Assembly: GCF_007097395.1 (NCBI RefSeq)
Contig: NZ_VKDC01000022.1
Location: 1-64,000, forward strand
Length of the DNA stretch: 64,000 nucleotides
Source of the DNA: Fulvivirga sp. M361
Lineage (GTDB): Bacteria > Bacteroidota > Bacteroidia > Cytophagales > Cyclobacteriaceae
Direction: 5' to 3'
A program made the translations under genes and the position numbers. This document shows, one piece after another, positions 1-29,473 of this stretch. Under the pieces are notes generated by a model. The model did no database searches, was not told where the DNA came from, and worked only from the letters and a program-made list of their open reading frames with translations. Positions within the stretch are counted from its first letter, which is position 1; each line of letters opens with the position of its first letter.

Positions 1-45
1 ATTTGAAGTAGTACACACAACACTAAGTTAACCCTTAGTCATCAA

Positions 46-76: not shown

Positions 77-350
77 ACTTTCTTTACCATAAAAAGAAGG
101 TGACTTTTGAGACACCCTCTTTTTCTTGTTTAAAAAGGGGAGATGTTTCTACCCATGCCCTTCGGGATACATTATCCTGAATGTTTCCGAATAATAAGTT
201 GATTTTTAAGGTTATGATTATGATCCAGAAGAATCATGCTTTTCTTCTCCAATCCGTAGGAACTCATAGAGACGAGCTGCCCGGTATGAGAGGGACTGTG
301 ACCAATCGTATCAACATTGGGTCTTTGTTGGCAAATGAAAAACCCGTAGA

Positions 351-370
351 CGGAGTGGTATACCACTCCG
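351..370. repeat. 20-bp perfect palindrome
   Basis: The ten bases CGGAGTGGTA are followed directly by their reverse complement TACCACTCCG, with no spacer. It is more GC-rich than its surroundings. There is no T run after it, so it is not a typical terminator. A protein-binding site or a remnant of a mobile element end are both possible. Confidence 0.6.
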
Positions 371-1003: not shown

Positions 1004-1027
1004 CATACATCAATTAATTGATGTATG
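1004..1027. promoter_or_regulatory. 24-bp perfect palindrome, candidate operator
   Basis: Perfect dyad with half-site CATACATCAATT, centred between bases 1015 and 1016, ending about 100 bases before the susC start codon at 1128. A perfect dyad of this length at this distance suggests an operator for a dimeric regulator, or a hairpin in the leader RNA. It is AT-rich and has no T run of terminator type. The function is inferred from position only. Confidence 0.5.
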
Positions 1028-1127
1028 CATTTTTAACTGCCCTTAAAAAATATGCCTGATCTTTTTTAGTTAATTTGAATACCTTAAATTGGGTGAGTTT
1101 TATAATTATTAACCTAACCAAAACTGT

Positions 1128-4403: not shown

Positions 4404-4431
4404 AGTTTTTAATCCTTTAAGAGTATTAGTA

Positions 4432-6108: not shown

Positions 6109-6126
6109 ATATCAAATTTGAATAGT

Positions 6127-7383: not shown

Positions 7384-7407
7384 TTACTATTATTTTGTAT
7401 TAAAAGG

Positions 7408-7437
7408 CCGTCCGGGATTTTCCCGGACGGTTTTTTT
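7408..7437 (+). terminator. Strong rho-independent terminator
   Basis: Perfect ten-base stem (CCGTCCGGGA at 7408-7417, TCCCGGACGG at 7421-7430) with a three-base loop, then seven T residues. It lies 24 bases after the last gene of the SusC/SusD operon and separates that operon from the FG-GAP gene. Confidence 0.93.
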
Positions 7438-7521
7438 GTACACTTTACATTCTCATGATTAGGTAAGTGTTCTTGTGTATTCATTTGATTTATAGTTAAT
7501 TGCAAAGTGATTTTGAAGTTG

Positions 7522-10500: not shown

Positions 10501-10842
10501 TTATTGATTAATGGCGGAAATGGCCACTTTAAGGTGAAGCCACTTCCGGTAGAAGCACAGTTTTTTCCAATATTGGACATGGAGACCTATGACTTTAACA
10601 AAGACGGTTATCAAGACCTGCTACTGGTAGGTGGTATATACGATACGGAAGTTGAGACACCACGATTTGATGCCGGTACGGGTTTGATGATGTTTTCCAA
10701 CCAAAAAGACAACTATCATCCCGTGCCTATCAGTAAAAGCGGCTTTTATTTTAGAGGCGCCTCAAAGTCCGTAAGTATTGTTGATGACTTAGTAGTAGTA
10801 GGGATTAATAATGCCCCTTTGTCTACTTTTAAGATCAACTGA
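7522..10842 (+). CDS. FG-GAP/VCBS-repeat lipoprotein with ASPIC/UnbV domain
   Basis: Large exported lipoprotein of the CRTAC1-like type. Lipobox ILMGC follows a hydrophobic signal. Many calcium-binding FG-GAP/VCBS repeats are visible, each with a D-x-N/D-x-D-G-x-x-D loop, such as DINNDGLKD, DINNDNWLD, DLDNDGDLE and DYDNDGDAD, arranged as two propeller-like blocks (about 50-510 and 640-1100). An ASPIC/UnbV segment lies between them (about 540-610, with HFGLGD and VRVEWPSG). Such proteins are commonly found beside SusC/SusD genes; the role is unknown, with adhesion or polymer binding as guesses. ATG at 7522 gives the best signal peptide; a GTG lies five codons earlier. Its end overlaps the convergent epimerase gene by 8 bases. 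Confidence 0.9.
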   Translation: MEFCVTPLLKSIVLLLLCILMGCSSEHKEQAEDQNKIQPVFEKLESNQTNVTFSNTITENVSTKENIFDFDYFYNGAGVGIADINNDGLKDVFFCGNQVPNRLYLNKGDLTFEDITERSLINAKKGWSNGVTFVDINNDNWLDIYISQGGPYSGGARENLLYINQHNLTFVESGETYGLNDPSISMQTVFFDYDKDNDMDCVVMNENPLYGFDPVSFNEKLANDETLLHESSSHFYENIDGRYEDVTREVGLLKPTFGLGLVVSDINDDQWLDVYMTNDYYIPDLIFINQKDKTFRDQSKVLTSQLSFFGMGADIADINNDHFKDIFVLDMASADHYRAKTLMASMDTQGFDLLVNQLGYQYQYMFNSLQLNTGNNTFKNIAQLAGLAKTDWSWAVLMTDFNNDPKKDIFITNGYRRYALNNDTRMNIIQARRAYQNVPEAVKKQIYYSMPTEKLPNLMFQNDGDLSFTDQTKSWGLSDPSYSNGAAYADLDNDGDLELVVNNIDEQAFIYKNMSVETGLGNFLNIETTGELSESFPKVIISHNGTTQIFENKRVRGYLSSVDLTAHFGLGDVAMVDTVRVEWPSGKWEERYDVRANNVIYFNEREALSGVIQNETLPLAALSSVDPMTQGLSFSHDENDYDDFVKEVLLPYKQSTLGPYIASADVNGDRRKDIYIGGASGQAGRLFLAKEVGFEEQRLDDFEKDRHFEDMESVFFDYDGDKDLDLYVVSGGNEQEGKNMYTDRLYLNDGNGRFSKATNILFNGFAEVGKTVCSLDYDNDGDADLVVGNRITAQHYPVAAPSYIFENRENTFVNVTDEVLPELNSFGVINKVIASDFDNDGWMDLVIAGEWTAIGLFKNVNGKFRNLAKENDLLLKKGWWFSIQETDVNDDGLPDFVIGNVGLNTKYKASMDKPLKVFASDFDNNGTFDLVLSSKYKDKYVPLRGRECSSQQMPFIAKKYPTFDGFAKASLIDVYGDQLNRSYQKEATFFESVLLINGGNGHFKVKPLPVEAQFFPILDMETYDFNKDGYQDLLLVGGIYDTEVETPRFDAGTGLMMFSNQKDNYHPVPISKSGFYFRGASKSVSIVDDLVVVGINNAPLSTFKIN

Positions 10843-11905
10843 TTTTAGAAACACCCAGGCCACTGGCCGAGGTTATACTCATCCACCCATCTTTTATATC
10901 AAAGCCACCCTTCACCACATCTTCCACCAGGTCCAGGCTGCCGTCAAGGTCTAAATATTTTGTGTTGGAAAATCCTAAGGCAGCATGTAAAGCCGCGCTG
11001 ATACTGATGGCGCTTTCATCATTGCAACCCCACATCAACTCTGTTCCGGACGACTGTGCGATAACGGCAATTTGACGCCCGGGATGAATGCCTCCTGACT
11101 TCATAAGCTTGATATTAAAAATACGGCTTGCGGCCGGGGGCGAGGCCAGTGTGAATGCATCCATGGGGGAGATCAGGCTTTCATCTGCGGCAACTAGTCG
11201 TTTTATTTCTTCCGGAAGAGCTTTTAACTCATTTACAGCCTTAGCCGGTATTGGTTGTTCTATCAGTTCTATTTTTTCACTTTCCGTTTCTTTATAGAAC
11301 TTCGTTAGCAATGCTACGTCATAACCCTGGTTGGCATCTACCCGTATGGTGAGGTCATTGCCATAGTTTTCTCTCAGCTTCTTCATACGTTCAATGTCTT
11401 CGTCCACATCTTTACCTGTTTTTACTTTGAGTACTCTGAAACCCATTTCATAGTATTCTTTAGCTTCTTCCAATGTATCTTGTACATTTTTTATTCCGAT
11501 GGTAACGGATGTGGGTAATGACTTGATCTTTTGGCCTAAAAATACGGCAAGTGGTACATCTATATATTTTGTAAAAGCATCATGAACAGCTATGTCCAAA
11601 GCAGCCCGGGCAGCTGGGTTTTCAGGGAGCTGAAGCTGTATTTCATCCAGCAGAGAATAAAGGTCGCGAATATCACGATGGATGAGAAAGTCCAGTTTGC
11701 CGTTGTTAAGTACGGAAAGTGTAGAGGTTAACGATTCACCTACTACATATTCACTGGGGTTACCTGAGCCCAACCCTACTATGCCATTTTCAAGTTCTAT
11801 TTCGGCAAAGGCGTTATATACTTCATCTACTGTTTTAAATGCGATAGTGTATGGACGAGTGTTTCCAAGGTCTTTTTTATAAATTCTTACCTCTTTTATT
11901 TTCAT
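10835..11905 (-). CDS. Enolase-superfamily dipeptide epimerase (L-Ala-D/L-Glu epimerase type)
   Basis: Cytoplasmic enzyme predicted to epimerise L-Ala-D-Glu, the first dipeptide of peptidoglycan stems, to L-Ala-L-Glu. Seen: the KxK acid/base motif (K160, K162), metal ligands in RVDANQ (D190), E216 and D241, the opposite-face lysine in NIKLMKSGG (K266), and a C-terminal LDLDGSLDL segment. In the dipeptide-epimerase group the DxD there holds the substrate's free amino group, which favours a dipeptide over an N-acylated amino acid. It is the last gene of the long minus-strand cluster, 117 bases or so after the DUF1611 gene. Length (356) is normal for the family. Confidence 0.88.
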   Translation of the reverse strand: MKIKEVRIYKKDLGNTRPYTIAFKTVDEVYNAFAEIELENGIVGLGSGNPSEYVVGESLTSTLSVLNNGKLDFLIHRDIRDLYSLLDEIQLQLPENPAARAALDIAVHDAFTKYIDVPLAVFLGQKIKSLPTSVTIGIKNVQDTLEEAKEYYEMGFRVLKVKTGKDVDEDIERMKKLRENYGNDLTIRVDANQGYDVALLTKFYKETESEKIELIEQPIPAKAVNELKALPEEIKRLVAADESLISPMDAFTLASPPAASRIFNIKLMKSGGIHPGRQIAVIAQSSGTELMWGCNDESAISISAALHAALGFSNTKYLDLDGSLDLVEDVVKGGFDIKDGWMSITSASGLGVSKIS

Positions 11906-12022
11906 AATTGTACCTTTTATAGGTCTTCTTTTGGCTTGTTATTAGGAGAAATATCTTTTGTCAAAGCGATCTGGTTATATTCTGCCGGATTAAGGTGTTT
12001 TAAATGATATCCTGATAATCAA

Positions 12023-13138
12023 TCAGGGTCTTGTTACCGGTACCACATCTTTTTTCTTATGCATCATTTGTTTTATGGTAGCGGCGCATCGGTTCATGCC
12101 TTCTTCCAGGGGAAGGACTGTGGGAATGCCCAGTTCCTGCTCTATCTTATTTTTAATGTTTTGTGCCTCTTTAGGTGTAAGGCCTTCCGAATTTAGTGTG
12201 ATGCAGATGGTATCCGTCCCGAGCATTTTTATCAGCGCTATTTCTTCTTCAATGGTTGGAATAGGTTTGCCATATTTTTCCAACCCGTTAAAATAGGTTC
12301 TTCCCGGGGCATGCTGTAATATAACACCGTCCAACTCACAAGAGATAATATACTCGGAGCCACAAGGGCCGCTTGGGTTGCGTAAAGATGACTGTCCTTC
12401 CAACAGGATCACATCGGGATCCTCTTTTTCCCAACATTGGCATACTGAGTGCTCCAACTCTCCGGATATAAAGTCATTAGGTGTAGCGTCGAATACAAAT
12501 CCGTATTGTCCCCCCTGTAACCATCCCGTTTGACCGGTATAGACCATATGAGCGTCACAACCATGTTCTTTTAATTCGTTCACCAAAAATTTGGTGGTGG
12601 TTCGTTTCCCAAGAGCACAGTCAGTGCCTAGGACGGCCAGTTTTAATGCTTTTACCTCTTTAATTTTTCCTGTCCAAAAGTGCAGATCTTTAAAACCTTT
12701 GGGCTTTCTGATATCCAAAATACGTGACTGACCTTGTTTAGCCACGGCAGAAAATTCTTCGATATCACCAATGGTTTCATGCAAACCATTCACCAGGCTT
12801 ATTCCCATTTCAAGGGTTTGCTTCACCAGGGGGTAAAGCTCTTCCGGTAGCACGCCACCTTTAGTAGCCATTCCTATGATGGCGTAATCCGGTTTTTGGC
12901 CACAGTGCCCGATCAGTTGTTCTATAGTGTGAAAGACCGGGATATTTCTATGTTTACCGTCCAGTAACATTCCGGCATCCTCCCCGGCTGAGATGTGATC
13001 AAGAACTCCTAAAATTTGAAATCGATCAGATTGCCTGATGAGTCCATGGGCCGTTTTGGCATGAACGTCATTCAGCAGGCCTCCCGTGATGATACACGCA
13101 GTACCGGTCACAGCGTTTTGGTTTAATTTATCGGTCAT
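12023..13138 (-). CDS. DUF1611 family protein (DgcN-like, possible D-glutamate N-acetyltransferase)
   Basis: Two-part protein: an N-terminal Rossmann-like part and a C-terminal P-loop part. The P-loop GTDCALGKRTT lies near residues 170-180, and LLEGQSSLRNPSG downstream is typical of DUF1611. Some members (DgcN) are reported to make N-acetyl-D-glutamate from D-Glu, working with an enolase-superfamily racemase, and the gene just downstream is of that superfamily. Here the neighbours point to cell-wall peptides as the source of D-Glu. ATG at 13138 is chosen over a TTG at 13150; it overlaps the upstream serine hydrolase gene by 11 bases, which suggests coupled translation. Family call is firm; the reaction is inferred. 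Confidence 0.78.
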   Translation of the reverse strand: MTDKLNQNAVTGTACIITGGLLNDVHAKTAHGLIRQSDRFQILGVLDHISAGEDAGMLLDGKHRNIPVFHTIEQLIGHCGQKPDYAIIGMATKGGVLPEELYPLVKQTLEMGISLVNGLHETIGDIEEFSAVAKQGQSRILDIRKPKGFKDLHFWTGKIKEVKALKLAVLGTDCALGKRTTTKFLVNELKEHGCDAHMVYTGQTGWLQGGQYGFVFDATPNDFISGELEHSVCQCWEKEDPDVILLEGQSSLRNPSGPCGSEYIISCELDGVILQHAPGRTYFNGLEKYGKPIPTIEEEIALIKMLGTDTICITLNSEGLTPKEAQNIKNKIEQELGIPTVLPLEEGMNRCAATIKQMMHKKKDVVPVTRP

Positions 13139-14366
13139 AACTAAGCTCAAATTTTGAAAGGTCAGGTTGATGTGACCTTTTTCTTGTTAATTCATAGGTA
13201 TAGACGGCTTGGCCCAGGGCTTTCATAAAAGGCAAGCCAATGGTTTCATACTCATAATTACCATCATTATACGTTTCATTATCATTTACATGGATCACCG
13301 CCGATAGCAGAAACTCTACCTTTTTATCCAGGTCAACGATGTAGGCATTGTCAATCAGGTAGCCATAGGCCTGTCCGATTTTATTGAATATGCGAATGTG
13401 CTCAGGTATATGTTTGTCATCTCCGTACATTAAAAATTTACAGTAAGCATCATAATATTCGTTGCTGCTATAGTCAGGGTAGGTAGTTTCTCTCGGTAAC
13501 TGGGACATGTATTGATAAAGAAAAGAATAATCTGCTTCCGTTAACTTGAATTTATCTGAAACCCCGGGAAATAATACGGCCTTCAGCATGTCTTGTAATT
13601 CACCAAGCGGGATGAAGTTTTTATAAGAAAAGTCAAAAGGAGCTTGTATCAGGCTATCGTTGTTATCCATATGTGCTTTGCCTTTTAGAATTTGCCTGGA
13701 TAACGAATGGTCCGCAGAGCTTTTGACCAATTCCTGTGAATAGATAAGAGAATCGCTTTGATAAAACCTTACCGGGTTAGTGTGTTGATTTTGCTCTTGC
13801 GATAGTGGTATAGATAAACGGTGGAGCAGCCGGGTGTTTATAAAGCCTTTTTGGTGAAGGGACTTATTGATGGCTTCCTGACCCAGGAATTCATACAGTC
13901 GATTATAAGCGTCATTGTCACTTACTACGAATATTTTTTTGATATAATGTGCTACACTTGGGAGCCTATTGGCAGATGTGGTGTCTTCTGTGACAGAACT
14001 TTGCCCCGAATAAGCGCTATCTGTTAAAAAAGTAGTGTGCTTATTGAGTCCTTCCACATGCAGCACATTAAGCTTTTCAAGTGCAAGGAACGCTGCCGGC
14101 ATTTTAACGGTACTAGCCGAGTAGAAATACCTTTCGGGATCAACATTAAATGAAAAAGACTTGAAATAAGGTTCATTTTGTTCGTTTCTGTTGATCTGTG
14201 TGTAAATAACCTGTAGCTCAAACTTATCTTTTGCATTCAACACTTTTTCTAACAGCCCTCCGCTACGTTTCATAAGATTTTCTACCAGGAACTCATCTTC
14301 GTTCAACGGCTTTTCGCATCCGCTAATTACCAGCATAGAACAGATCAGGATCATGAGGTTTTTCAT
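13128..14366 (-). CDS. Class A beta-lactamase-like serine hydrolase, lipoprotein
   Basis: Exported serine hydrolase of the penicillin-binding/beta-lactamase fold. Lipobox MLVISGC (Cys17) shows membrane anchoring. The active-site SxxK is S85-T-V-K88, the SDN motif is at 149-151, and the third motif (normally KTG) reads KIG at 329-331, followed by QAYG. At 412 residues it is longer than class A beta-lactamases (about 290), with extra sequence between the second and third motifs. Its place between an amidase and a DUF1611 gene suggests action on peptidoglycan peptides, for example as a peptidase, more than drug resistance. It lies 5 bases after the amidase gene in the same operon. Confidence 0.8.
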   Translation of the reverse strand: MKNLMILICSMLVISGCEKPLNEDEFLVENLMKRSGGLLEKVLNAKDKFELQVIYTQINRNEQNEPYFKSFSFNVDPERYFYSASTVKMPAAFLALEKLNVLHVEGLNKHTTFLTDSAYSGQSSVTEDTTSANRLPSVAHYIKKIFVVSDNDAYNRLYEFLGQEAINKSLHQKGFINTRLLHRLSIPLSQEQNQHTNPVRFYQSDSLIYSQELVKSSADHSLSRQILKGKAHMDNNDSLIQAPFDFSYKNFIPLGELQDMLKAVLFPGVSDKFKLTEADYSFLYQYMSQLPRETTYPDYSSNEYYDAYCKFLMYGDDKHIPEHIRIFNKIGQAYGYLIDNAYIVDLDKKVEFLLSAVIHVNDNETYNDGNYEYETIGLPFMKALGQAVYTYELTRKRSHQPDLSKFELSYDR

Positions 14367-14371
14367 GTCTA

Positions 14372-15034
14372 TTAAAGGCCCGGGGCCGGTTTAAGCTTTT
14401 TATCAATAGAATAATGTAGTTTTTGAATGAATTCAGGCCCCACATCAGTCTTTTCTGTCAAATAGTTAGCATCTTTTTCTTTCCACAGAGGATGGCCGAT
14501 GAATTGTTTATACTGATCGTGGCCAATCAAATACTCAAGCGGATACTTTTCAGCCAGATGGTTGATCAATTTAACATTAGCTTCGAACTGCTTTTCTGTT
14601 AAAGGCAGTTCTTTTCCATCGGCTACGTTTTCAATACCTATAGCACAATGGTTAAGTCCTATCACATGCCTGGCAAAAGTGGTTTCAGGCAATAATTGGT
14701 AAACCGTTCCATCACGGTCCACCAGGAAATGCGCAGAAACATTTAAATTACCGGCATTTTTTATGGCGGTACGGTGTCCTGGTAACTCAGAAGGATTAAA
14801 AGCAGCAAATGACCTTTCCAAAGTAGGTATGACCGTCCAGTGCACTACAACCATCTTTGGGTCTATTTCAGCTTTGGCTTTTTCTATACCGTAATGTTCT
14901 CGCATGTATTCAAGAGAAAGCTGTTCACGGGTAGTGTCAAAGGTGATGGGTCTGTCTATGATCCGACCTGTACTGCTACAGCTGCTAACAGCAAGAACAA
15001 AAGTAAACAAAAGTATTTTTGGAAGACTATTCAT
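14372..15034 (-). CDS. N-acetylmuramoyl-L-alanine amidase (Amidase_2/PGRP fold)
   Basis: Zinc amidase that cuts the bond between N-acetylmuramic acid and L-alanine, freeing stem peptides. An N-terminal lipoprotein signal is visible (AVSSC, Cys19), so it should act in the periplasm or outer membrane. Family marks: VVHWT (His65, probable zinc ligand), a SAHFLVDRDGTVYQL strand at 100-114, NHCAIGIE at 128-135 and IGHDQYK (His172, second ligand). The third ligand may be H181 or D188. Length of 220 residues fits a single catalytic domain. Its start overlaps the end of the LD-carboxypeptidase gene by 8 bases, indicating co-translation. Confidence 0.87.
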   Translation of the reverse strand: MNSLPKILLFTFVLAVSSCSSTGRIIDRPITFDTTREQLSLEYMREHYGIEKAKAEIDPKMVVVHWTVIPTLERSFAAFNPSELPGHRTAIKNAGNLNVSAHFLVDRDGTVYQLLPETTFARHVIGLNHCAIGIENVADGKELPLTEKQFEANVKLINHLAEKYPLEYLIGHDQYKQFIGHPLWKEKDANYLTEKTDVGPEFIQKLHYSIDKKLKPAPGL

Positions 15035-16076
15035 TCAATGCAGACGTTACAAGTTGGAACATACCTTTGTTTGCGTTTAATTCCGCTTCCACACCGATCG
15101 GCACAGTAAATTTCGATTGGATATGACCGATCATCGATCCGCTGAAAGCTGGAATTTTTAATGGTTTGATGTAGTGATCAATGATTTCATCAAATGTCAA
15201 TGAGCCATAACCTCTGTCAGGATCACATCGTGTACATTTTCCGAATATAAAGCCTTTAATATCTTTCAAAATGCCAGATAAGTATAGTTGGGACATCAAA
15301 CGGTCCACACGATATAACGCTTCATTCACTTCCTCTAAAAACAGGATACTACCTTTAAAACCGGGCACGTAGTCTGAGCCTAATAGCCCGCATAATACGG
15401 ACAGGTTACCCCCTATTAGCCTTCCCCGGACGGTCCCCGGATGGATCACACGGATCCGGTTTTCCGTCTGCACCCATTGATGCTCCGGTTTTTCCGGGTT
15501 TTTAAATTCCATCAGCTCATTATCGAACAGCAGTTGTGTAAAATAGGAGCGAGAGAACTCATCCCATGAAGACAACCCTACCGGCCCGTGGAAAGTTACT
15601 AATCCGGTCTTTTTATAAATTGCTAATTGTAGCGCTGTAATGTCACTGTAACCAATGAAAACCTTCGGGTTCTTTCGGATGGTATTGTAATCCAATTTGT
15701 CAAGTATACGCGCTGCTCCAGAACCTCCTCGTAAGCAGATAATACCATGGATGGCCGTATTGTCAAACATTTCATTTACTTCAGCTGCCCGTTCTTCATC
15801 CGTACCGGCCAGGTGACCGTACCGGCTTTTCAGAAACTTACTGACCTGAACTTTGAGTCCGAATTTTTCCAGCGCTTCAATGGCAATGTTGATAGGTTCA
15901 TGATTAAAAACAGCGCCTGAGGGGCTTATGAGGGCTATGGTATTGCCATGAGTTAGTTTTTTTGGTTTTTGATTTTTAGCTGAATGGGTGTTATTAAAAG
16001 CATTGTATTTCAAAACTGGCAGTACGGCCAGACTTTGACCTGATTGAGTCAAGAATTTTCTTCTATTGAGCGTCAT
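15027..16076 (-). CDS. LD-carboxypeptidase (peptidase S66, LdcA-like) with Tat-like signal
   Basis: Serine peptidase predicted to remove the terminal D-Ala from murein tetrapeptides. Catalytic set of family S66 is visible: Ser144 in GYSD, Glu in FLEE (248-249) and His318 in GHIQ. The start carries RRKFL (5-9) followed by a hydrophobic stretch, a twin-arginine-like signal, so the enzyme is probably exported folded, unlike cytoplasmic E. coli LdcA. It is 115 bases after the lipoprotein gene and overlaps the amidase gene, giving a carboxypeptidase-amidase pair. Length 349 is normal once the signal is counted. Confidence 0.88.
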   Translation of the reverse strand: MTLNRRKFLTQSGQSLAVLPVLKYNAFNNTHSAKNQKPKKLTHGNTIALISPSGAVFNHEPINIAIEALEKFGLKVQVSKFLKSRYGHLAGTDEERAAEVNEMFDNTAIHGIICLRGGSGAARILDKLDYNTIRKNPKVFIGYSDITALQLAIYKKTGLVTFHGPVGLSSWDEFSRSYFTQLLFDNELMEFKNPEKPEHQWVQTENRIRVIHPGTVRGRLIGGNLSVLCGLLGSDYVPGFKGSILFLEEVNEALYRVDRLMSQLYLSGILKDIKGFIFGKCTRCDPDRGYGSLTFDEIIDHYIKPLKIPAFSGSMIGHIQSKFTVPIGVEAELNANKGMFQLVTSALNE

Positions 16077-16191
16077 GTATTAAGTAGGAGATTGCAGATA
16101 CATCAGCTTTGTAAATCATGATGTATCTGCAATTAGTGATTATAATTCAATTAATGGTGAAATCCAATGACCTGGAATTGGTTAATCTATT

Positions 16192-17004
16192 TTATTGTTT
16201 AACGAGTATGGTTGTGCCTGAGTCACCTGAGTCGTTGGAAAAGTTAATAGTAATTGAGCCAATACCGTCTATAACACCCGTTGCGTCCAGAAAATTATCG
16301 CCAAAAGATCCTTGAAAGCCTGGATCTTCTGGGACATCGTCTGCGGATACTTCACATGAATTTCTATCAAGCACGGCTGGAAGTGATACTACACCCAAAT
16401 TTGAATAGATGTCAGCATAAAATTCACCATAAAGACCTCCTGTAATATCTGTGATGCCAAATGTGCCATTATCATTATCCGTTATTACTACTTCAAAAGG
16501 ACTTCCGGTATTGTCATAAGGACCATCAAATGGGGTTTGAGCCGTGGTTACAGCTAAATATGTACCTTCTAGGGAGGCAGAGGGACAATCTGAGACTACT
16601 GCTGAAAATGCTGGATTCCTGATTAATCCATTGGCAGCAATAGCTCTTACTTCTATAATGATTTCATCACCTGGTTCTGCGGACATTGGAGGAGTATAGG
16701 CGAATGACCGAACTTGTGAGCCAAATCTATTGAAATTGCTGAAAAGTTCAGCTTCCAGAATTGTTTCAGCCCCATCTCCAATGGTTTCGACAAGTTCCAA
16801 AGAGGTTATATCGATACTTGGAGAATAAAAAAGGACATCAATGTTATATGTTGCTCCCAGGTCCAATGCGGTAGGTGTGTCACTGGTTATAATCACCGTT
16901 GGTAAGGCACCAATAACTCTGTATTCCAAATCCTCCTGGTCTTCTTCACAGGCAGTCTGAACTATAACAGCCAATGCTAATAATACATATATAAATTTTC
17001 TCAT
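16192..17004 (-). CDS. Hypothetical lipoprotein after SusC/SusD
   Basis: A 270-residue lipoprotein (lipobox IVQTAC, Cys19) of beta-strand pattern. Position 34 bases after the SusD gene matches the small surface lipoproteins often encoded third in SusC/SusD operons. Residues about 35-125 (PTVIITSDTPTALDLG onward) look like an immunoglobulin-like domain, and the rest contains a GTYLAVTT segment and an aspartate-rich region of the kind found in lipocalin-like or beta-sandwich binding domains. I do not recognise a named family. A ligand-binding role in uptake of the same substrate is inferred. Confidence 0.72.
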   Translation of the reverse strand: MRKFIYVLLALAVIVQTACEEDQEDLEYRVIGALPTVIITSDTPTALDLGATYNIDVLFYSPSIDITSLELVETIGDGAETILEAELFSNFNRFGSQVRSFAYTPPMSAEPGDEIIIEVRAIAANGLIRNPAFSAVVSDCPSASLEGTYLAVTTAQTPFDGPYDNTGSPFEVVITDNDNGTFGITDITGGLYGEFYADIYSNLGVVSLPAVLDRNSCEVSADDVPEDPGFQGSFGDNFLDATGVIDGIGSITINFSNDSGDSGTTILVKQ

Positions 17005-17038
17005 GGTTCAATTATTAATAACTTCTTTGACTAAAAAT

Positions 17039-18493
17039 TTATTCCTCATCAGTGCTAAACCAAATCGGTTTTGTATGATAATCTAATTCAAGACCCCCTA
17101 TTTTCTCTAAGGCGTCGCTGTTCCAGTCGTATTCGGAGAAGCGTCTTAAAAGCCACCTTTGGGCCGGTTTACCATTATTGTCTGCGGCAAATTCACTCGG
17201 AAGTGTAAAACCGAGATACACGGTATTATCATATTGATACCTTCTCAGGTCTGACCATGTTTCATTGTTCGAGTAGAGAGAGATATACTTTTGCATCATA
17301 ATATGATTTAGTTCAAGATCACTTGCGTCTTGAGGAATGGCTGTAGACAAATATTGAGTTGCTTCTGCCGGGGATACACCTGTAAAGTCCATATGTGCTT
17401 GAATAGCTTTGAGAAAAGCATCATAAGCCAGGGGTAAATTATTTTGTATAAAAGCAGCTTCCGACTTTATGAACTGAAGTTCCGAATAGGTGATCAATGG
17501 ATAGGGGGCAGCATCTGTGAAGATGTACTTTCCATATAATCTAGGCACACGAATGTTTGTAGTGGTATCTCCCAAAGTAGGAACTACTCCTATGTAGTTC
17601 TGTGTGGAGTCCGTATCAGAATTGAGCATTAAAGATAATCTTGGATCAGTCACACCATTGAAATATGTGCCATCGAGATAGCTTACAATCAATTGGGTTC
17701 TTAAACGGCTATTAAAGTTACCTCTGGAGGGTCCCATAAAACTACTTGTGGCGGAACTCTCAGCATCAAAGGGCACCTCTGCATTATCCTCGTTGCTTTC
17801 GAAAGAGTTATCCACAAAGTTGATTACTGCTGCAGGATCATATGAGCTTTTATTTGAAATATGATGTGCATTTCGGGCCTTTATAGCATAAGCGAACTTA
17901 ATCCATTTACTTACGTCTCCATTGTAAAGCTTCTCCATGTCTGCCAATTTTGGATCAGTTTGACCTGTTGGATTATTTAATAATTCAATACCCTGGTTAC
18001 ATAATTCATGGATGCCTGCATAAATATCCTTTTGAGGATCATAATCGAAGCTAGTACGTGTATTGTCCCAGGCCTGACGGAATGGGAGTTCGCCATGGTG
18101 ATCCGTAACTATTTGCCAACTCCAGGCGCGTATAATATTGACAATACCTGAGTAATCAGCCAGCCCAAGCTCTTCTGCCTGTTCGGCTACTTCATTTAGA
18201 TTTGAACCTATTGACCAATAATGATCTCTAAATTTTTGTGTTCCACTGCTATTACTTGAAGCATGACGATCAAAACCATTATTGGCATTTACCCATGCCC
18301 AGTTCTGTGTAATTGCTCCTACGTAGCGGCTATCAAACATTTCACCTTCAGCCATAGAATAGACGATCTGCGGCAAGTATAGGTCTGGTGTAGCTGTTTG
18401 AGGAAGAAATGGATCGTCATTAATATCCAGGTAATCTTCACAAGACATTATAACAAGTGCCAGGGTTATGTATAAAAGTTTTATTTTTTTCAT
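17039..18493 (-). CDS. SusD/RagB-family lipoprotein (SusD-like_2 type)
   Basis: Substrate-binding surface lipoprotein paired with the SusC gene 28 bases upstream. Lipobox VIMSCEDYLD near residue 18 and the following NDDPFLPQ segment are typical of the SusD-like_2 subgroup, which often pairs with peptide or protein-linked substrates as well as glycans. Length 484 is usual. C-terminal part has the LRRYQYDN and QRWLLRRFSEYDWN segments common to this subgroup. As the first soluble component of the muropeptide cluster it could bind peptidoglycan fragments; that is inferred from the downstream genes. Confidence 0.9.
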   Translation of the reverse strand: MKKIKLLYITLALVIMSCEDYLDINDDPFLPQTATPDLYLPQIVYSMAEGEMFDSRYVGAITQNWAWVNANNGFDRHASSNSSGTQKFRDHYWSIGSNLNEVAEQAEELGLADYSGIVNIIRAWSWQIVTDHHGELPFRQAWDNTRTSFDYDPQKDIYAGIHELCNQGIELLNNPTGQTDPKLADMEKLYNGDVSKWIKFAYAIKARNAHHISNKSSYDPAAVINFVDNSFESNEDNAEVPFDAESSATSSFMGPSRGNFNSRLRTQLIVSYLDGTYFNGVTDPRLSLMLNSDTDSTQNYIGVVPTLGDTTTNIRVPRLYGKYIFTDAAPYPLITYSELQFIKSEAAFIQNNLPLAYDAFLKAIQAHMDFTGVSPAEATQYLSTAIPQDASDLELNHIMMQKYISLYSNNETWSDLRRYQYDNTVYLGFTLPSEFAADNNGKPAQRWLLRRFSEYDWNSDALEKIGGLELDYHTKPIWFSTDEE

Positions 18494-18521
18494 AATTACT
18501 AAGTTTTAAATGATCAAAAAC

Positions 18522-21500
18522 TTAAAAGCCAACACGAAGCCCAATGGCTAATGTGCTGGGATTGGGTACAGAGAAATGGTCAAAACCAACAGCATTACTG
18601 CCACCGGCTGAAGCGTTTAATCCATTAAGGCTTGGATCAGCACCATCATAGTTTGACCATAGGATCAGGTTCGTACCTGTAACGTTGACCTGAAGACTAT
18701 TAATAAATACATTACTTAATAAGGAAGAAGGTAGCTGGTAACTTAATGTGATATCCATTAATCGAAACCAATTAATATCTTTTTCCACAAATAAGGACTC
18801 CGTTCTACCACGGCTTGAAGTATAGAAATCCTCATCCAGTAATACTTCCTGGGTGTTTCTTTCCCCGCTTTCAAGCACACCATCAAATACCACTCTTGTT
18901 TGACGATTGGCTGTACGTTGGCTCAAACCTGAAAATGTAAGTGATCGTTCTGTTGAGTTATATATATCTCCTCCTTTTCGCATATCCATGAGAAAAGAAA
19001 GTGTAAAACCTTTATAAGTCAGCGTATTAGTAAGTCCTATACTAAAATCTGATTCACGATTACCAATCTCTGTAAAAGTAGCATCTACTATTGGGTATCC
19101 GTCCGTTCCAATCAGGAGTTCTCCGTTGTCATTTCTTTCATAAGAATAACCAGTAATGGTCATAAAGGATTTACCAGGAACGTATCCGGCTCTGGCATTA
19201 CCTGCCAACCAGGTATCAGACAGATAGAATTCTTCTTGATCACCAGGAAGCGATATCACTTTGTTTCGATTAAGAGAAAAATTGGCATTAACGCTCCAGT
19301 TGAATGCACTATTTGCTATCACCTGACCGTTGATCATTATCTCAAGCCCTTGATTTTCTATCTCACCTGCATTGACCAATTGGAGAATATACCCAGTTGC
19401 ATAACTTAATCTTGGGTCTACTATCTGATCCCTGCTTCGGACATTGTAGTAAGTGAAGTCCAGGCCTATTCTGTTCTGTAAGAAACGAATATCAAGCCCT
19501 GCTTCATAGGATACTGTTGTCTCTGGCTTTATATTGTCATTAGGACCAAAAAAACCAACGTTAAATCCGCCTCCGGATCGTGTGAATTCCTGAAGAGCTG
19601 GTTGAATACGATGAGGCGGGGCATCTTTACCTACTTGTGCAAAAGATGCTCTGATTTTCCCAAATGATATGGGTGAGTTCGTATCTAGATTGAAAGCTTC
19701 AGAAAAAACAAAACTTGTACTCACAGAAGGATAAAAGAAACTGTTGTTTTGATCGGGTAAGGTGGAAGACCAGTCATTTCTACCAGTTATACTTAGAAAC
19801 AACATGTTTTTATAGTCGATCTTTGCTTCTCCAAATACTCCGATTAATCTTCTTCGCGAGCCACGTACTCCTACCTCACGTGAATCTGGATCAGTGTTGA
19901 TAATACTATATAGACCAGGCACCAATATGTTTTCACCATACCTGGAATCTACGCGATAATCCCTGTCTTCAATATTGTTGCCTAATGTGACTCCAATATT
20001 AAAGTCACCGAATGATTTGTTGGCGTTAATCAATATAAAAGAGTTTAATAATTGACTGTAAGCTTCATATTCCGCCATCAAACCATTGACCTCTTGAGCG
20101 ATACTTCTGCCAGGATATCTTTGTATTGATTCGGGGCTGTAGGTGGTCAGTCCTCTTGTGGTGTAAACGTCGGTACCAATTCGTCCGGTTACACTTAACC
20201 AATCGAAAATATCGTAAGTCAAACTTCCGTTTAATAAAATTCTATCTGTTTCATCAGTTATACTATTATTTTTAACCGTGAAAAGTGGATTTTCAATTTC
20301 ATCATCACTTAAATTCCCTTGTGCTCTGATGTCATTAGTAATAGGCCACCTTAATATATTTGCGTATATACTTCCGGTACCTTTTGAGATACGCTCTGAT
20401 TCGGTACGTATATAGCTGGTTGAGGTGGTCAGCTTTAGCTTAGGATTCAGCTTTGCCGTTAGGTTGACCCTGTAGGTGTTTTTGTCGTACCCTGTACTTG
20501 GGACTGATCCATCCTGTCTTGTAAAATTGGCGGAAGCCATGTAGGTAAGGTTTTCCGAACCACCACTTACATTGACCCCATGAAGTTGTGTAAAACCAGT
20601 TTCAAAAAAGTTTTCAACATTGTCAAATACCTGATTGTCAGGACCTATTGGTTCTCCCCAGTGAACAAAAGCTTCAGGATCATTGACTCCTTCTGTTCCG
20701 GTATTATATTGCTTTAGCAAATCAGGAAATCGATTTACCTTTTCCCACCTAAAGTTATTGGTGTAACTGATTTTGGCTTTACCTGCTTCACCACTTTTAG
20801 TGGTAATAATAATAGCCCCATTGGCAGCGTCAATGCCATACAACGCGGCAGCGGCAGGGCCTTTTAATACAGTAATACTTTCAACGTCATTAGGATCAAT
20901 GTCCGTCGCCCGGCTTGAATAGTCGGATTGACGATTAGGGGCTGAATTGAGAAGGTCGCCCTCATCGAGGGTGGTGTTATCGATAGGAATTCCATCAACA
21001 ATAAAAAGAGGTTGATTACTTCCACCTAAAGAGGATCCTCCTCTTATCACAATAGAAGAAGATGATCCGGGTAAGCCACTCGTGGTTCCTACTGAAACTC
21101 CCGCAATTCGTCCTTGTAATGCATTGATCAGGTTTGGGCGCGTAGTTTTTGATATATCTTCTCCTCCCACTTCCTGAATGGCATAACCAAGTGCTTTCTT
21201 TTCTTTTTTTATTCCAAATGATGTTACGACTACTTCAGTGAGTTGAGTTACGTCTGTTTTCATTTGAACATTAATGACATTACGACCTCCAATGGAGACT
21301 TCAACACTTTCATAACCGATAAAAGAAAAGATAATAGTCTGTGCAGAAGAAGGTGCAGCTAATGTATAGTTGCCGTCAATGTCAGTCACAGTACCTATAG
21401 TAGTACCTTTCATCAAAACGGAAACACCGGGTAGAGTCTCATCAGACTCTGATGTTACTGTACCCCTGATAGTTTGCTGGGCAAGACCATCCATTGACAT

Positions 21501-21545
21501 CAAGGAAGCACATATTAGGATTAAACATGTAAAAATTTTCTTCAT
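18522..21545 (-). CDS. SusC/RagA-family TonB-dependent outer-membrane transporter
   Basis: First gene of the minus-strand cluster. The 1007-residue protein has a signal peptide ending near GLAQQ, a carboxypeptidase-regulatory-like domain (about 24-100, IRGTVTSESDETLPGVSVL), a plug domain (about 110-250, LFIVDGIPID and NGAIIITTKSGE) and a barrel ending in RVGF. It would import the substrate bound by the SusD protein that follows. The genes downstream (LD-carboxypeptidase, amidase, serine hydrolase, DUF1611, epimerase) suggest peptidoglycan fragments or D-amino-acid peptides as cargo. That assignment is inference. Confidence 0.95.
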   Translation of the reverse strand: MKKIFTCLILICASLMSMDGLAQQTIRGTVTSESDETLPGVSVLMKGTTIGTVTDIDGNYTLAAPSSAQTIIFSFIGYESVEVSIGGRNVINVQMKTDVTQLTEVVVTSFGIKKEKKALGYAIQEVGGEDISKTTRPNLINALQGRIAGVSVGTTSGLPGSSSSIVIRGGSSLGGSNQPLFIVDGIPIDNTTLDEGDLLNSAPNRQSDYSSRATDIDPNDVESITVLKGPAAAALYGIDAANGAIIITTKSGEAGKAKISYTNNFRWEKVNRFPDLLKQYNTGTEGVNDPEAFVHWGEPIGPDNQVFDNVENFFETGFTQLHGVNVSGGSENLTYMASANFTRQDGSVPSTGYDKNTYRVNLTAKLNPKLKLTTSTSYIRTESERISKGTGSIYANILRWPITNDIRAQGNLSDDEIENPLFTVKNNSITDETDRILLNGSLTYDIFDWLSVTGRIGTDVYTTRGLTTYSPESIQRYPGRSIAQEVNGLMAEYEAYSQLLNSFILINANKSFGDFNIGVTLGNNIEDRDYRVDSRYGENILVPGLYSIINTDPDSREVGVRGSRRRLIGVFGEAKIDYKNMLFLSITGRNDWSSTLPDQNNSFFYPSVSTSFVFSEAFNLDTNSPISFGKIRASFAQVGKDAPPHRIQPALQEFTRSGGGFNVGFFGPNDNIKPETTVSYEAGLDIRFLQNRIGLDFTYYNVRSRDQIVDPRLSYATGYILQLVNAGEIENQGLEIMINGQVIANSAFNWSVNANFSLNRNKVISLPGDQEEFYLSDTWLAGNARAGYVPGKSFMTITGYSYERNDNGELLIGTDGYPIVDATFTEIGNRESDFSIGLTNTLTYKGFTLSFLMDMRKGGDIYNSTERSLTFSGLSQRTANRQTRVVFDGVLESGERNTQEVLLDEDFYTSSRGRTESLFVEKDINWFRLMDITLSYQLPSSLLSNVFINSLQVNVTGTNLILWSNYDGADPSLNGLNASAGGSNAVGFDHFSVPNPSTLAIGLRVGF

Positions 21546-21746: not shown

Positions 21747-22736
21747 ATGATACCTGATAAAATAAAGTATGCTATAGAAAACTCTAATCTTTCCGGCGTT
21801 GTAGACCGGCGAAAGTATGGATTGGATTGGACTAAATATACCCGCACGGTGTTTGACCAATTTGCCAGGAGAATAAACTTTAAAGTGACTCAGGAAGTGA
21901 TAGATCACCCTTATTTGGTGAGCGGTTTACTACTTGTCGGTAAAGAAGAATTAGAGAATGTCCTATTCAAATATAGATTAAATAGTATTGACGATTTCAT
22001 TACTCACTTGAAAGGGCTTAATGATTACAATCCGCATCACTGGATCAGTGGTAAAACACTGTATTTGTATTGGCAGAATGGAAATGCCAAGGACAAGAAA
22101 CTAAACGTGTTGCTTACTTTTCTTGAAATTGACATGGGCCGTTGGGACGACTGGAAGAAGTCAGATGCACCGGATCAAACATCACTAAAGTCTAAGCTTA
22201 AAGGGAAAGAAGGTCTTTTGAAAAACCACTATCAAGGGTGTTACTTCCGATACTATCAAAAGACGGATGGAAGTCGTGTGTTGGTAAAGGCTCCTTTCCA
22301 GATCAAAGAGGACCCAAATCAAGGAATAATAGGTATAACTAAGACCGTGGGTCATTATTATAAAAGCTCAAGTGTGGCCATTCGGGATGGAGCGCTATAT
22401 ATAGAATGTGAAAATATTAACTGGAATGAAAAGGAAAGCCATGTTTTCAATGTAGGTTTTGAAACTAATCCACAACTGTTAATAGGTGTTTCCACTACGT
22501 TAAGCAGGAGAGGACATGCGTTGGGGATCAAAAATGTATTGGTCAGACAGGCAAAGCCTTATGACTACGATAAAACCGATGCGGAAGAAATACCTTTTGA
22601 TACTGTATTTGATGAACCCTGTGAAGAGTCACAAATGGTAGATTTTTTCAAACGAAGTGCACATAATCTCATTACCACTTCATTAGTACACAGCTTTCAT
22701 GAATTGCCGGGTTTTCCCGAAAAAGCATTAAAATAA
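21747..22736 (+). CDS. Unrecognised cytoplasmic protein
   Basis: A 329-residue protein with no signal peptide or membrane segment, so probably cytoplasmic. I do not recognise it. Residues 1-70 look helical and charged; residues about 80-135 hold GLNDYNPHHWISGKTLYLYW; residues about 160-290 look like a beta-rich domain with GCYFRYYQKTDG, GHYYKSSSVAIRDGALYIECEN and TTLSRRGHALGIKNVLVRQ. The C-terminus is helical. It is divergent from the muropeptide operon across a 200-base space containing an inverted repeat, so a sensor or regulator of that operon is one possibility, though no DNA-binding motif is seen. Confidence 0.75.
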   Translation: MIPDKIKYAIENSNLSGVVDRRKYGLDWTKYTRTVFDQFARRINFKVTQEVIDHPYLVSGLLLVGKEELENVLFKYRLNSIDDFITHLKGLNDYNPHHWISGKTLYLYWQNGNAKDKKLNVLLTFLEIDMGRWDDWKKSDAPDQTSLKSKLKGKEGLLKNHYQGCYFRYYQKTDGSRVLVKAPFQIKEDPNQGIIGITKTVGHYYKSSSVAIRDGALYIECENINWNEKESHVFNVGFETNPQLLIGVSTTLSRRGHALGIKNVLVRQAKPYDYDKTDAEEIPFDTVFDEPCEESQMVDFFKRSAHNLITTSLVHSFHELPGFPEKALK

Positions 22737-22769: not shown

Positions 22770-24005
22770 TTACTTTCCATATTTTTCGAGTAGTAACTCC
22801 ATAATGATCTGTGCAGATACTTTTCCTTTTTCCTCTACAAAGGCCCGGGGAGTATCATCACCTACTTCATACGTCACGGATTCTGCTTTGAATTCATTTA
22901 AAAACCAGTTTTTGGAAACGGGCGATTCAGCGCCACCGTCTTCTTCCGTAATCGTTTCCCGCGGAAAAGCTTGTCTTAACCTGCTGATCCAGTTTTTTAC
23001 GATGCCCTTACTTTCAGGAAAAGTCTCGTTGTTAAACGTATAAAGCAAATCTTCATGGGTGGAATGAAAATCCAGCCCCAGGGCTACGCTGTGGTCCCCG
23101 TTTTTTACTTGTTGATGGACATACTTTTGAAACTGATCAATTTCAGGTTGGTTAAAATATTGCCAGTCGCGGTTAAGATCTACCCCACCTGCATTGTGCC
23201 TCCAGTGACCGTTGTCTACTCCATCCGGATTCATCATAGGTACTAACACAGTGCCGAATTGCGCTCTGAATTTTTTAGAGAGTTCCGTATCAGCTGTGAT
23301 TTCCTTCATAAACGCTTTCATGGCAATATAACCTGTCAGCTCCGGCGGATGCTGACGGCTTATGACCACTAATAAAGGTTGTTTTTTATCCACTGCTATT
23401 TTAAGAGCGCTGATCGTGATACCATTTCTACTGGTGCCAATGGATTGTTTCGTTACAAAACCCAATGCTGACACTTCATTTACCCAGCTTTCATTGTGTT
23501 TTGAGGTCATGAGCTCTTGCGCTGAGATCCATTGATACTGCGTTGATAGATCAAGTTTCAATATAACGCTGTCATTTTCCTGCAGCATATACCTTGTGCT
23601 ATCAAAGGGTTGCCAGTCCATACCATTCCGGCTGATGTCCGGATAGTAGCGGTGCTTACCATCCTTATAGCTGAGATGAAGATAGACCTCTTTGTCTACC
23701 TCAGCTTTAATTTTGAAAGAATACCAGGGACTCATATTAATGGGGGCGTTTTCAGGATGGATGCTTATCTGGTATAGCGTATCGTTGATCTTTGTAAATC
23801 CATTCATCCTTGCACCATCGAATTCATTGCTTACGGTAATCCCATCTATAGAGAAAGCACCTTTTTTCTGGGTTTCAATGGGTTTGGTTTTTGTGTTGGT
23901 TGATCCTGGAGGGTCATAAGACAAAGGAGCGGCTGTTTTTTTGGTAGAGGAGCAGGCGGCTGCGAGATATAGGAAAAAAAGGAATACGATAGTATGGAAG
24001 TGCAT
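22770..24005 (-). CDS. M14-family zinc carboxypeptidase, lipoprotein
   Basis: Exported metallocarboxypeptidase with a lipobox (YLAAAC). Residues about 45-190 form an N-terminal beta-sandwich of the kind preceding cytosolic-type M14 domains; the catalytic part follows. Zinc motif HPPE (about 219-222), substrate-binding NPDG and NAGGVDLNRDW (about 259-281), third zinc ligand in LDFHSTHED (about 314) and the catalytic Glu in VTYEVGDD (about 380) are all present. It may trim peptides from proteins or cell-wall stems. ATG at 24005 is used; a GTG start lies two codons earlier. It converges on the unknown gene ending at 22736. Confidence 0.88.
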   Translation of the reverse strand: MHFHTIVFLFFLYLAAACSSTKKTAAPLSYDPPGSTNTKTKPIETQKKGAFSIDGITVSNEFDGARMNGFTKINDTLYQISIHPENAPINMSPWYSFKIKAEVDKEVYLHLSYKDGKHRYYPDISRNGMDWQPFDSTRYMLQENDSVILKLDLSTQYQWISAQELMTSKHNESWVNEVSALGFVTKQSIGTSRNGITISALKIAVDKKQPLLVVISRQHPPELTGYIAMKAFMKEITADTELSKKFRAQFGTVLVPMMNPDGVDNGHWRHNAGGVDLNRDWQYFNQPEIDQFQKYVHQQVKNGDHSVALGLDFHSTHEDLLYTFNNETFPESKGIVKNWISRLRQAFPRETITEEDGGAESPVSKNWFLNEFKAESVTYEVGDDTPRAFVEEKGKVSAQIIMELLLEKYGK

Positions 24006-24407
24006 GGGCACGTGAGGTTTGTTTCGAGGGATTAAAAATAGGAAATAATTATATTGTTCATTGCCAGGTTGGTGCGATATAACTTTTGAATAGCTGATGT
24101 TAAGCCCAGATTCTCTACTTCTGACCGTGTCTATTAAGGGGAGGAGGTCATTAGCAGCTATACTTAAATCTTTGTACGCCCTGCGATTCAGGTCGATAAC
24201 TTGAATTGTTTAGCACTTCATATGTCCTTCCTTAGGTATGCTATGCGATTAGACCTCGTGTGAACTCAACCTGGAAAACCAAGGGTAATACAAATCTTCG
24301 TTACATTGAGTCAGTACTTTTCACTCAGCTTGACTAAGAACGCACATCAATGTCTCCGATCCATACTTTTAGTATTGAGAGGGTCTGATGGTTTTTATAT
24401 TGACAGG
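24006..24407. other. Intergenic stretch, nothing recognised
   Basis: About 400 bases between the M14 peptidase start and the toxin gene end. I see no open frame, tRNA or strong hairpin. It may contain the peptidase promoter. Confidence 0.4.
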
Positions 24408-26082: not shown

Positions 26083-26124
26083 TTGGGTGTAGTGGTGATT
26101 TTTGAAGTTGTGAAAACGCATTGA

Positions 26125-29094: not shown

Positions 29095-29473
29095 AACGAC
29101 GTGTTGAATTGGGCCTTTGAACTTAACAAAAAATTGAATGGTAACTGTTATAGGTGCATGAATAGTAGGCGATCGATAGCATAGGATGCACAATTTCCTC
29201 ACACTAAAGTCATTAATTGGTGATTTGGAAAGCCAACTTGACTATTTTTGCCGCAATTTTGATGAATTGCCCTGCAGTTTTTCTATGAAGCAATTGATCT
29301 AATAACTATATTAACCAGTTGTTTACATATTAATCTGTAACCAGGTATAAATATTGGCCAATAGAACGTTTAGTACTAACTAATGAGTCACAAACCACAT
29401 CGAAAAGCAGGCGGAGGAAATTGAAAAGTGAATTCTGAAATTGATAGCATAACATACATTAAGAAAGCAAAAA
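29095..29473. other. Divergent promoter region
   Basis: About 380 AT-rich bases between the GH3 fusion gene and the hydroxylase gene, which diverge. It should contain both promoters. TATTTTTG at 29243-29250 fits the TAnnTTTG element of Bacteroidota on the plus strand, but its upstream TTTG is spaced by only 15 bases, so I do not call it. No gene is seen, apart from a possible longer N-terminus of the fusion protein. Confidence 0.4.

Follow-up and report, generated by a model that had tools for sequence, protein, structure and literature searches.

A SusC/SusD locus with murein-peptide enzymes in Fulvivirga sp. M361: a probable peptidoglycan salvage or nutrition unit

SusC/SusD systems are known mainly for glycans, which raises the question of what such an importer does at the head of an operon-like array whose enzymes appear directed at the peptide side of peptidoglycan. 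One such array lies on contig NZ_VKDC01000022.1 of the marine bacterium Fulvivirga sp. M361 (assembly GCF_007097395.1; genome of 8.13 Mb), within the stretch of 64,000 nucleotides analysed here (positions 1 to 64,000, hereafter the window), where eight open reading frames (ORFs) on the minus strand between 10835 and 21545 encode, in transcription order, SusC, SusD, a lipoprotein, an S66 carboxypeptidase, an amidase, an SxxK serine hydrolase, a DUF1611 protein and a dipeptide epimerase. Because relatives keep the combination of importer and cell-wall enzymes, we consider the locus to be, with good probability, a unit for the salvage of murein peptides or for feeding on them. The eight genes, in transcription order, are:

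18522..21545, minus strand: SusC/RagA TonB-linked outer-membrane transporter of 1007 amino acids (TIGR04056, 716.5 bits; clade I of the SusC tree described below)
17039..18493, minus strand: SusD-like surface lipoprotein of 484 amino acids, C|EDYLD at the lipid cysteine (SusD-like_2, PF12771, 154 bits)
16192..17004, minus strand: lipoprotein of no known family, 270 amino acids, acidic after the cysteine (no Pfam or NCBIfam match)
15027..16076, minus strand: exported LD-carboxypeptidase of family S66, with an RRxF motif like that of twin-arginine translocation (Tat) signals (PF02016/PF17676; PRK11253, 203 bits, cut-off 378)
14372..15034, minus strand: lipoprotein N-acetylmuramoyl-L-alanine amidase, Amidase_2 (PF01510, 77.9 bits)
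13128..14366, minus strand: lipoprotein SxxK serine hydrolase with a class A beta-lactamase / PBP-A fold (PF13354, Beta-lactamase2)
12023..13150, minus strand: DUF1611 protein, a distant DgcN relative (PF07755/PF17396; NF041892, 138.6 bits, cut-off 480)
10835..11905, minus strand: dipeptide epimerase of the enolase superfamily, MR_MLE (PF13378/PF02746; NF041118, 211.7 bits, cut-off 500)

ORFs together with Pfam and NCBIfam matches confirm the places and order of these genes given in the first-pass annotation, and the intergenic distances (28, 34, 115, -8, 5, -23 and 117 bases in transcription order) bear out its ceiling of about 120 bases. It had also counted three overlaps: two of them (8 and 23 bases) lie inside the set, and the third, also of 8 bases, is no operon overlap, being shared by the epimerase with a convergently oriented FG-GAP gene. 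The DUF1611 ORF begins with TTG, and an alternative in-frame ATG at 13138 would shrink its overlap to 11 bases. SusC is followed directly, after 28 bases, by a SusD-family lipoprotein, as in an import pair. Sigma-70-type promoter matches, the one promoter type covered by that scan, stood at the level of shuffled sequence (44 versus 45.0), and scanning the upstream sequence for promoters, terminators and repeats yielded nothing of use.

The DUF1611 protein is present in eight of the 15 genomes of the genus, the window genome included, and the full eight-gene order recurs in three other genus genomes (loci L149, L150 and L153). Since it is kept in other genomes, the order is not due to chance. 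In L153, from F. imtechensis, the third gene is only weakly like the lipoprotein of the window (32.6 bits) and the SxxK hydrolase is fused to an M14 domain (L153:5318-7984), a fusion also found in Agaribacillus (L196:11234-13717). Shortened versions occur in two more genomes of the genus, L057 having neither amidase nor hydrolase and L154 running SusC-SusD-small protein-DUF1611-epimerase, and outside the genus in the Agaribacillus locus, where the amidase is missing. L151, on a short contig, has hydrolase-DUF1611-epimerase alone, without SusC/SusD. Counterparts of the lipoprotein of no known family range from 138 to 388 amino acids, and some resemble that of the window weakly.

The active-site motifs of the enzymes are intact. 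In the S66 protein, S144, E248 and H318 are invariant in all five aligned sequences, which also share RRxF near the start; the protein has both S66 domains and, with its catalytic residues kept, looks like the LD-carboxypeptidase of a ykf/ycjG-type locus. Its sole NCBIfam match is PRK11253, muramoyltetrapeptide carboxypeptidase, at 203 bits against an equivalog cut-off of 378; a muramoyltetrapeptide carboxypeptidase is also its best match in the PDB, where MccF proteins are among the matches. The amidase keeps H65, E135, H172, K195 and D197 (5/5 aligned). Catalytic roles in the S66 protein, the amidase and the epimerase are assigned after LdcA, AmpD and YkfB. In the SxxK hydrolase, S85xxK88, S149DN151 and K329xG331 are invariant in 19 of 19 sequences; no PDB sequence matched it at E values up to 1, and it scores 24.8 bits against the class A beta-lactamase profile NF033103 (cut-off 200). 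A search with its predicted fold (predicted local distance difference test, pLDDT, 90) led to class A beta-lactamases and, at rank 41, to PBP-A, a peptidase. Among the eight genes Pfam gave no D-Glu-diamino acid endopeptidase of the NlpC/P60 or MpaA-type M14 kind; an M14 lipoprotein gene upstream and the M14 fusions of relatives were seen.

All 16 epimerase rows keep K160, K162, D190, E216, D241 and K266 together with the DxD pair D319/D321, and 13 of the 16 keep K24; the DxD pair presumably holds a dipeptide by its free amino end. Among solved structures the window epimerase comes closest to 3rit (50% identical; template modelling score, TM, 0.97), the dipeptide epimerase of Methylococcus capsulatus, on which our literature search found no paper. 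NCBIfam scores it as an L-Ala-D/L-Glu epimerase with 211.7 bits (cut-off 500) and as DgcA with 128.1 bits (cut-off 400). By fold and residues the protein thus appears to be a dipeptide epimerase, with L-Ala-D-Glu as one candidate substrate. The DUF1611 protein has PDB matches 2g0t, 2obn and 7xrj, and a role in D-amino-acid salvage is likely for it. Membership of DgcN and DgcA at equivalog level was rejected (138.6 versus 480 and 128.1 versus 400 bits). A second DUF1611 gene of the same genome, on contig C109 (L004:8541-11364), is followed by an ornithine/alanine-racemase-like gene (395.2 versus 480 bits as ornithine racemase) and an M15 D-Ala-D-Ala dipeptidase-like gene (51.2 versus 176 bits; Pfam M15 above cut-off). 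In other Bacteroidota, L176:1567-7082 and L182:9650-15312 hold sets of a pyridoxal phosphate (PLP) enzyme, DUF1611, in one form an interposed gene without assignment, a creatininase-like gene and an epimerase.

Where these proteins act can be read in part from their export signals. In Bacteroidota, acidic residues after the lipid cysteine mark surface export, and we counted D and E at positions +1 to +5: there are 2-3 in each SusD protein from these loci, 3-4 in the lipoproteins, bar that of L150, and 0-1 in amidase, SxxK hydrolase and M14. For the L150 lipoprotein the count used an earlier cysteine, the later one preceding LDEQE; earlier cysteines were likewise taken for the L149 and L150 amidases, and the row L150 177 is another SusD. 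TatC is present in the window genome. This pattern suggests that SusD sits at the surface together with the family-less lipoprotein and that the amidase and the SxxK hydrolase are periplasmic, acting after import. The first-pass annotation had placed amidase and LD-carboxypeptidase before SusC/SusD import; with acidic signals on SusD and lipoprotein, none on amidase, hydrolase or M14, and the Tat-like RRxF on S66, the reverse order is suggested, import first and periplasmic trimming second.

Relatives of the importer speak to its cargo. We searched the window SusC and SusD in ten genomes, a biased sample in that nine were chosen since their S66 locus holds a SusC, and found 13 to 98 SusC matches per genome, pieces included. 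The best SusC outside the window genome, at 45% identity, occurs in Gillisia and Zunongwangia; the SusD of Zunongwangia is 44% identical to that of the window, and the two pieces of the Gillisia SusD are 39% and 50% identical. Both pairs head a SusC-SusD-DUF4397 lipoprotein-GHL10-epimerase-NlpC/P60 array (L326 in Zunongwangia and L327 in Gillisia, each 1-12001), with a symporter after GHL10 in L327. MurQ stands just upstream of SusC in L327 and near a neighbouring SusC in L277, the Gillisia MurQ lying above its NCBIfam cut-off (330.7 versus 302). By gene content all three are apparent whole-peptidoglycan utilisation loci. In eight of the ten genomes the best non-self SusC match falls in a murein-type locus: in G781 and G782 this is the S66 locus itself, in G784, G785, G786 and G787 the match has GHL10 and an epimerase as neighbours, in G788 GHL10 alone, and in the window genome the best-scoring paralogue lies beside two GHL10 genes on contig C91. 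The latter stretch (C91:70000-83341, L328) holds a SusC-SusD-lipoprotein-PKD-GHL10 set with the second GHL10 gene near. A rough Poisson-binomial calculation with SusD counts as hand-chosen denominators, and with a GHL10 marker picked after G785 and G787 had been seen, gives 2.9e-4 for eight of ten, 0.036 with all chances doubled and 1.1e-3 for four lineages.

Other SusC/SusD pairs also stand near S66 genes. In Flavobacteriaceae a SusC-SusD-(amidase)-M14 array is divergent from a gene pair that ends in S66 and whose first gene, in the one locus tested (L206), is of PBP4 type (113.1 bits versus a cut-off of 107.8). Sphingobacterium and Rhinopithecimicrobium carry an epimerase-SusC group beside S66-M14; L217, the one of these tested, runs NlpC/P60-epimerase-SusC-SusD. 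A GH3BLA label on Sphingobacterium loci proved spurious (33.6 and 37.6 bits in two loci, amidohydrolase-like by eye) and was left unused. Taken with the order kept in the genus, SusC/SusD pairs beside S66, amidase, M14, PBP4, epimerase or NlpC/P60 in Flavobacteriaceae and Sphingobacteriaceae, and the closest pairs beside GHL10, epimerase, NlpC/P60 and MurQ, lend support to the earlier suggestion that this SusC/SusD may be devoted to murein fragments.

The SusC trees (a quick tree of 54 rows and a careful one with 31 of them, the SusC of L210, split over two frames, being too short) show how these importers are related. Clade I (11 rows, support 100/99) holds the window SusC, the nearer of two L149 copies, eight GHL10/MurQ loci and one markerless row, so that ten of 11 rows lie in murein-type loci, GHL10 being the one marker in three of these. 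The second clade, clade II (13 rows, 100/100), unites L153, L154, L057, L196, the farther L149 copy, three flavobacterial S66 loci, L061, L063, L081 and two markerless rows, with 11 of 13 in murein-type loci. The gene slot at the head of the locus therefore carries SusC of at least two lineages, and both clades recur beside murein genes elsewhere. A single clade for the seven slot SusC proteins, a test chosen after the quick tree was seen, was rejected at a cost of 786 log units (approximately unbiased test, p-AU 6.65e-41). The epimerases of the same seven loci, with those of L151 and L152, form one clade (99/99; 31-row tree), and one clade is not rejected for their DUF1611 proteins (p-AU 0.374). 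With slot SusC proteins not forming one clade, epimerases forming one and DUF1611 compatible with one, we suggest that the importer changed while the enzymes were kept. In L149:5323-19501, two SusC-SusD-lipoprotein sets of different clades stand in tandem before one set of murein enzymes, an arrangement that looks like importer exchange caught midway.

Upstream of SusC lie three further features:

21747..22736, plus strand: conserved gene without a family assignment, transcribed away from SusC (no match in Pfam or NCBIfam)
22770..24011, minus strand: M14 zinc carboxypeptidase lipoprotein, probable member of the locus (PF00246, 56.9 bits)
26125..29202, minus strand: GH3-type enzyme fused to a beta-lactamase-type serine hydrolase (PF00933, 267.7 bits; PF00144, 140 bits)

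The divergent gene adjoins SusC in seven loci (window, L149 in part, L150, L153, L154, L057 and L196), its counterpart was not found in L152, which has no SusC/SusD, and it is a possible regulator. It alone separates M14 from SusC. With M14 at the same place in L150 and directly upstream of amidase-hydrolase-DUF1611-epimerase in L152, the gene at 22770-24011 is a probable ninth member, absent from the set first annotated; the label M14 covers two kinds, 21-24% alike. Close upstream, at 25222-29202 on the minus strand, a NAGPA phosphodiester glycosidase accompanies the GH3-serine hydrolase fusion. The fusion resembles NagZ-AmiE-type murein enzymes and is treated here as a neighbour of the locus. 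On the other side, at 1128-10842 on the plus strand, a second SusC-SusD-lipoprotein set is followed by a gene for a 1111-amino-acid FG-GAP/UnbV lipoprotein that converges on the epimerase. SusD/SusC also adjoin the locus in L150/L195, and an FG-GAP gene does so in L149.

How firmly is the importer tied to the enzymes? We fetched DUF1611 neighbourhoods from 81 of 86 order-level and 34 of 72 phylum-level places (the rest being already included, left out or the window itself), in stretches of at most 20 kb, some contigs being shorter, and with L040, L053 and L170 uncounted because they gave no DUF1611 frame. DUF1611 is followed directly by the epimerase in 54 of 79 stretches at the level of the order, in 6 of 6 from the genus and in 23 of 33 at that of the phylum, and a SusC longer than 800 amino acids is present in 7 of 79 (one from this genus), 4 of 6 and 1 of 33, respectively. 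Because SusC is rare beside this widespread pair, SusC/SusD is best seen as an addition to it; SusC/SusD as its fixed partner was rejected, most fetched relatives being without it. L083 reads SusC-SusD-nitrilase-like-DUF1611-epimerase; in L061, L063 and L081 a convergent SusC-SusD lies a few genes on from the DUF1611-epimerase pair, which M14 precedes in L061, the one tested.

A number of these observations weigh against the assignment to murein peptides. The DUF1611-epimerase pair, common in Bacteroidota, would normally work without SusC/SusD, and L152 has M14-amidase-hydrolase-DUF1611-epimerase without it. Among the S66 matches listed, SusC lies within 9 kb of only 19 of 72 loci (Cytophagales 4/6, Flavobacteriaceae 9/25, Sphingobacteriaceae-type 6/22, others 0/19; groups assigned by hand, the others mostly outside Bacteroidota, and L231 giving no S66 frame). 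A single murein SusC family was rejected, the trees holding several lineages: the L150 SusC falls in neither clade, with weak placement, outside both are five of eight SusC proteins from flavobacterial S66 loci, six of Sphingobacterium type and that of L083, and three rows within clades I and II have no murein marker in their short stretches. In G783 and G789 the best SusC match lies outside a murein locus, the third and the second match, respectively, lying inside one. Pfam and NCBIfam matched no inner-membrane peptide transporter in any of the ten proteins encoded between 10835 and 24011; outside the locus, the genome has two genes resembling AmpG, with scores under the cut-off of 350 (161.7 and 137.8). 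As 3rit was crystallised with L-Arg-D-Lys, and the L-Ala-D/L-Glu epimerase 1jpm is 30% identical to the window protein, L-Ala-D-Glu is one candidate dipeptide among others. The murein role of GHL10, finally, is taken from E. coli DigH, a GHL10 protein. A GHL10 profile search does find a match in E. coli, and DigH is described as a hydrolase specific for denuded murein glycans in a source that does not use the term GHL10 (PMC12288456).

Some of the same facts would be expected if SusC/SusD were a general oligopeptide importer of the RagAB kind, standing beside the cell's own periplasmic murein-recycling genes and sharing their operon for joint regulation or by chance. That DUF1611-epimerase mostly stands without SusC/SusD, that L152 has the enzymes alone, that the slot holds SusC of several lineages and that RagAB, a SusC/SusD-type complex, is implicated in protein uptake all fit such an importer. 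We nevertheless consider it unlikely, though to be taken seriously, since every SusC lineage exchanged at this slot turns up again next to murein genes, including a MurQ/GHL10/NlpC locus, and the best non-self match lies in such a locus in eight of ten genomes.

The locus could instead serve the use of D-glutamate or other D-amino acids, SusC/SusD importing peptides of various origin that contain them while DUF1611 and epimerase take the parts of DgcN (N-acetylation) and DgcA (racemisation). One study describes how DgcN and DgcA together convert D-Glu to L-Glu (PMC10845958), both proteins have NCBIfam similarity to that pair, and the C109 DUF1611 gene stands beside ornithine-racemase-like and D-Ala-D-Ala dipeptidase-like genes. 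Yet both scores are far under the equivalog cut-offs, the epimerase scores higher as an L-Ala-D/L-Glu epimerase and keeps its DxD pair in 16 of 16 rows (a comparison among epimerases), and free D-Glu use has no place for an amidase and an LD-carboxypeptidase, which makes this explanation very improbable. Scarcely credible, to our minds, is self-protection, in which the SxxK hydrolase and S66 would destroy beta-lactam or microcin-like compounds entering through SusC/SusD. The class A beta-lactamase fold of the hydrolase and MccF among the S66 matches invite the idea, but PRK11253 is the one NCBIfam match of S66, whose best PDB match is a muramoyltetrapeptide carboxypeptidase, the fold search also gives the peptidase PBP-A, and amidase, epimerase and DUF1611 do not fit. 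A glycan locus was rejected, Pfam giving no carbohydrate enzyme among the eight genes.

For a murein-peptide unit, the analysis directly establishes what the genes are, that the active-site motifs are intact, that the set is conserved and that related SusC/SusD pairs recur beside murein genes, and a route through the cell can be proposed. SusC/SusD, helped by the surface lipoprotein, would bring muropeptides or stem peptides across the outer membrane. Once these are in the periplasm, the amidase would free stem peptides from N-acetylmuramic acid (MurNAc), and the SxxK hydrolase and S66 would remove D-Ala from the peptide ends (DD and LD), while cleavage between D-Glu and diaminopimelate probably falls to the upstream M14. 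A transporter of the inner membrane, with its gene outside the locus, would carry the di- or tripeptide into the cytoplasm, where the epimerase may convert L-Ala-D-Glu, or a like dipeptide, to the LL form for ordinary dipeptidases, with DUF1611 handling leftover D-Glu or a related product.

We are evenly divided on a wider proposal: that Bacteroidota possess loci devoted to peptidoglycan utilisation, analogous to those for polysaccharides, where two or more SusC lineages turned into murein-fragment importers, and that these loci exist in two forms, one for the peptide side (as in the window: S66, amidase, SxxK hydrolase, DUF1611, epimerase) and one for whole murein (GHL10, MurQ, symporter, epimerase, NlpC/P60), the importer being exchanged while the enzymes stay and DUF1611 being an enzyme for murein-derived D-amino acids. 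If true, such loci would let these bacteria feed on cell-wall detritus, and a SusC/SusD pair importing murein fragments would account for the uptake of external or shed cell wall in this phylum. A 2024 review calls gut-bacterial secretion of such carboxypeptidases onto outside peptidoglycan undetermined (PMC11382707), and bacterial peptidoglycan with its D-amino acids is presented as part of long-lived marine organic matter in another paper (PMC10845958); these loci might thus serve as markers for degraders of marine peptidoglycan. The locus also makes DUF1611 and the unnamed surface lipoprotein directly testable. In the open-licence literature, at the level of titles and the starts of abstracts, no SusC/SusD uptake of murein fragments is described, a weak absence as subscription papers mostly lie outside it.

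Among known systems, polysaccharide utilisation loci share with the window locus an operon-like array headed by SusC/SusD, with degradative enzymes and a surface lipoprotein. In contrast, the eight window genes include no glycoside hydrolase, the GH3 fusion being separated from SusC by about 4.6 kb and by other genes, and their enzymes target peptides and the peptide-sugar amide. To our knowledge no murein enzymes have been linked to RagAB of Porphyromonas gingivalis, also of SusC/SusD type; the cargo implicated there is protein, whereas that of the window pair would be murein peptides. Tannerella forsythia lives on external murein products by means of an ampG operon and MurTKQ (PMC7670621); the passages available treat inner-membrane AmpG with no SusC/SusD step, and the window locus would handle peptides, not MurNAc, the likeness to MurTKQ lying in the MurQ beside the related SusC/SusD of Gillisia. 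The DgcN-DgcA pathway likewise pairs a DUF1611-family protein with an enolase-type racemase/epimerase, from which the window proteins differ in scoring well below the equivalog cut-offs. Nearest in enzyme content is the Bacillus ykfABCD / E. coli ycjG type, in which S66 adjoins an L-Ala-D/L-Glu-type epimerase. Both Bacillus loci examined, L260 and L261, have this arrangement, with ABC-transporter-like frames around the two genes in L260 by eye; ycjG/ykfB are linked to D-Glu-diaminopimelate endopeptidases in one source (PMC5808125). To this the window locus adds SusC/SusD, exported lipoprotein enzymes and DUF1611, an inner-membrane transporter not having been found in it, and we regard it as a variation on known murein-peptide catabolism to which SusC/SusD import and exported enzymes have been added.

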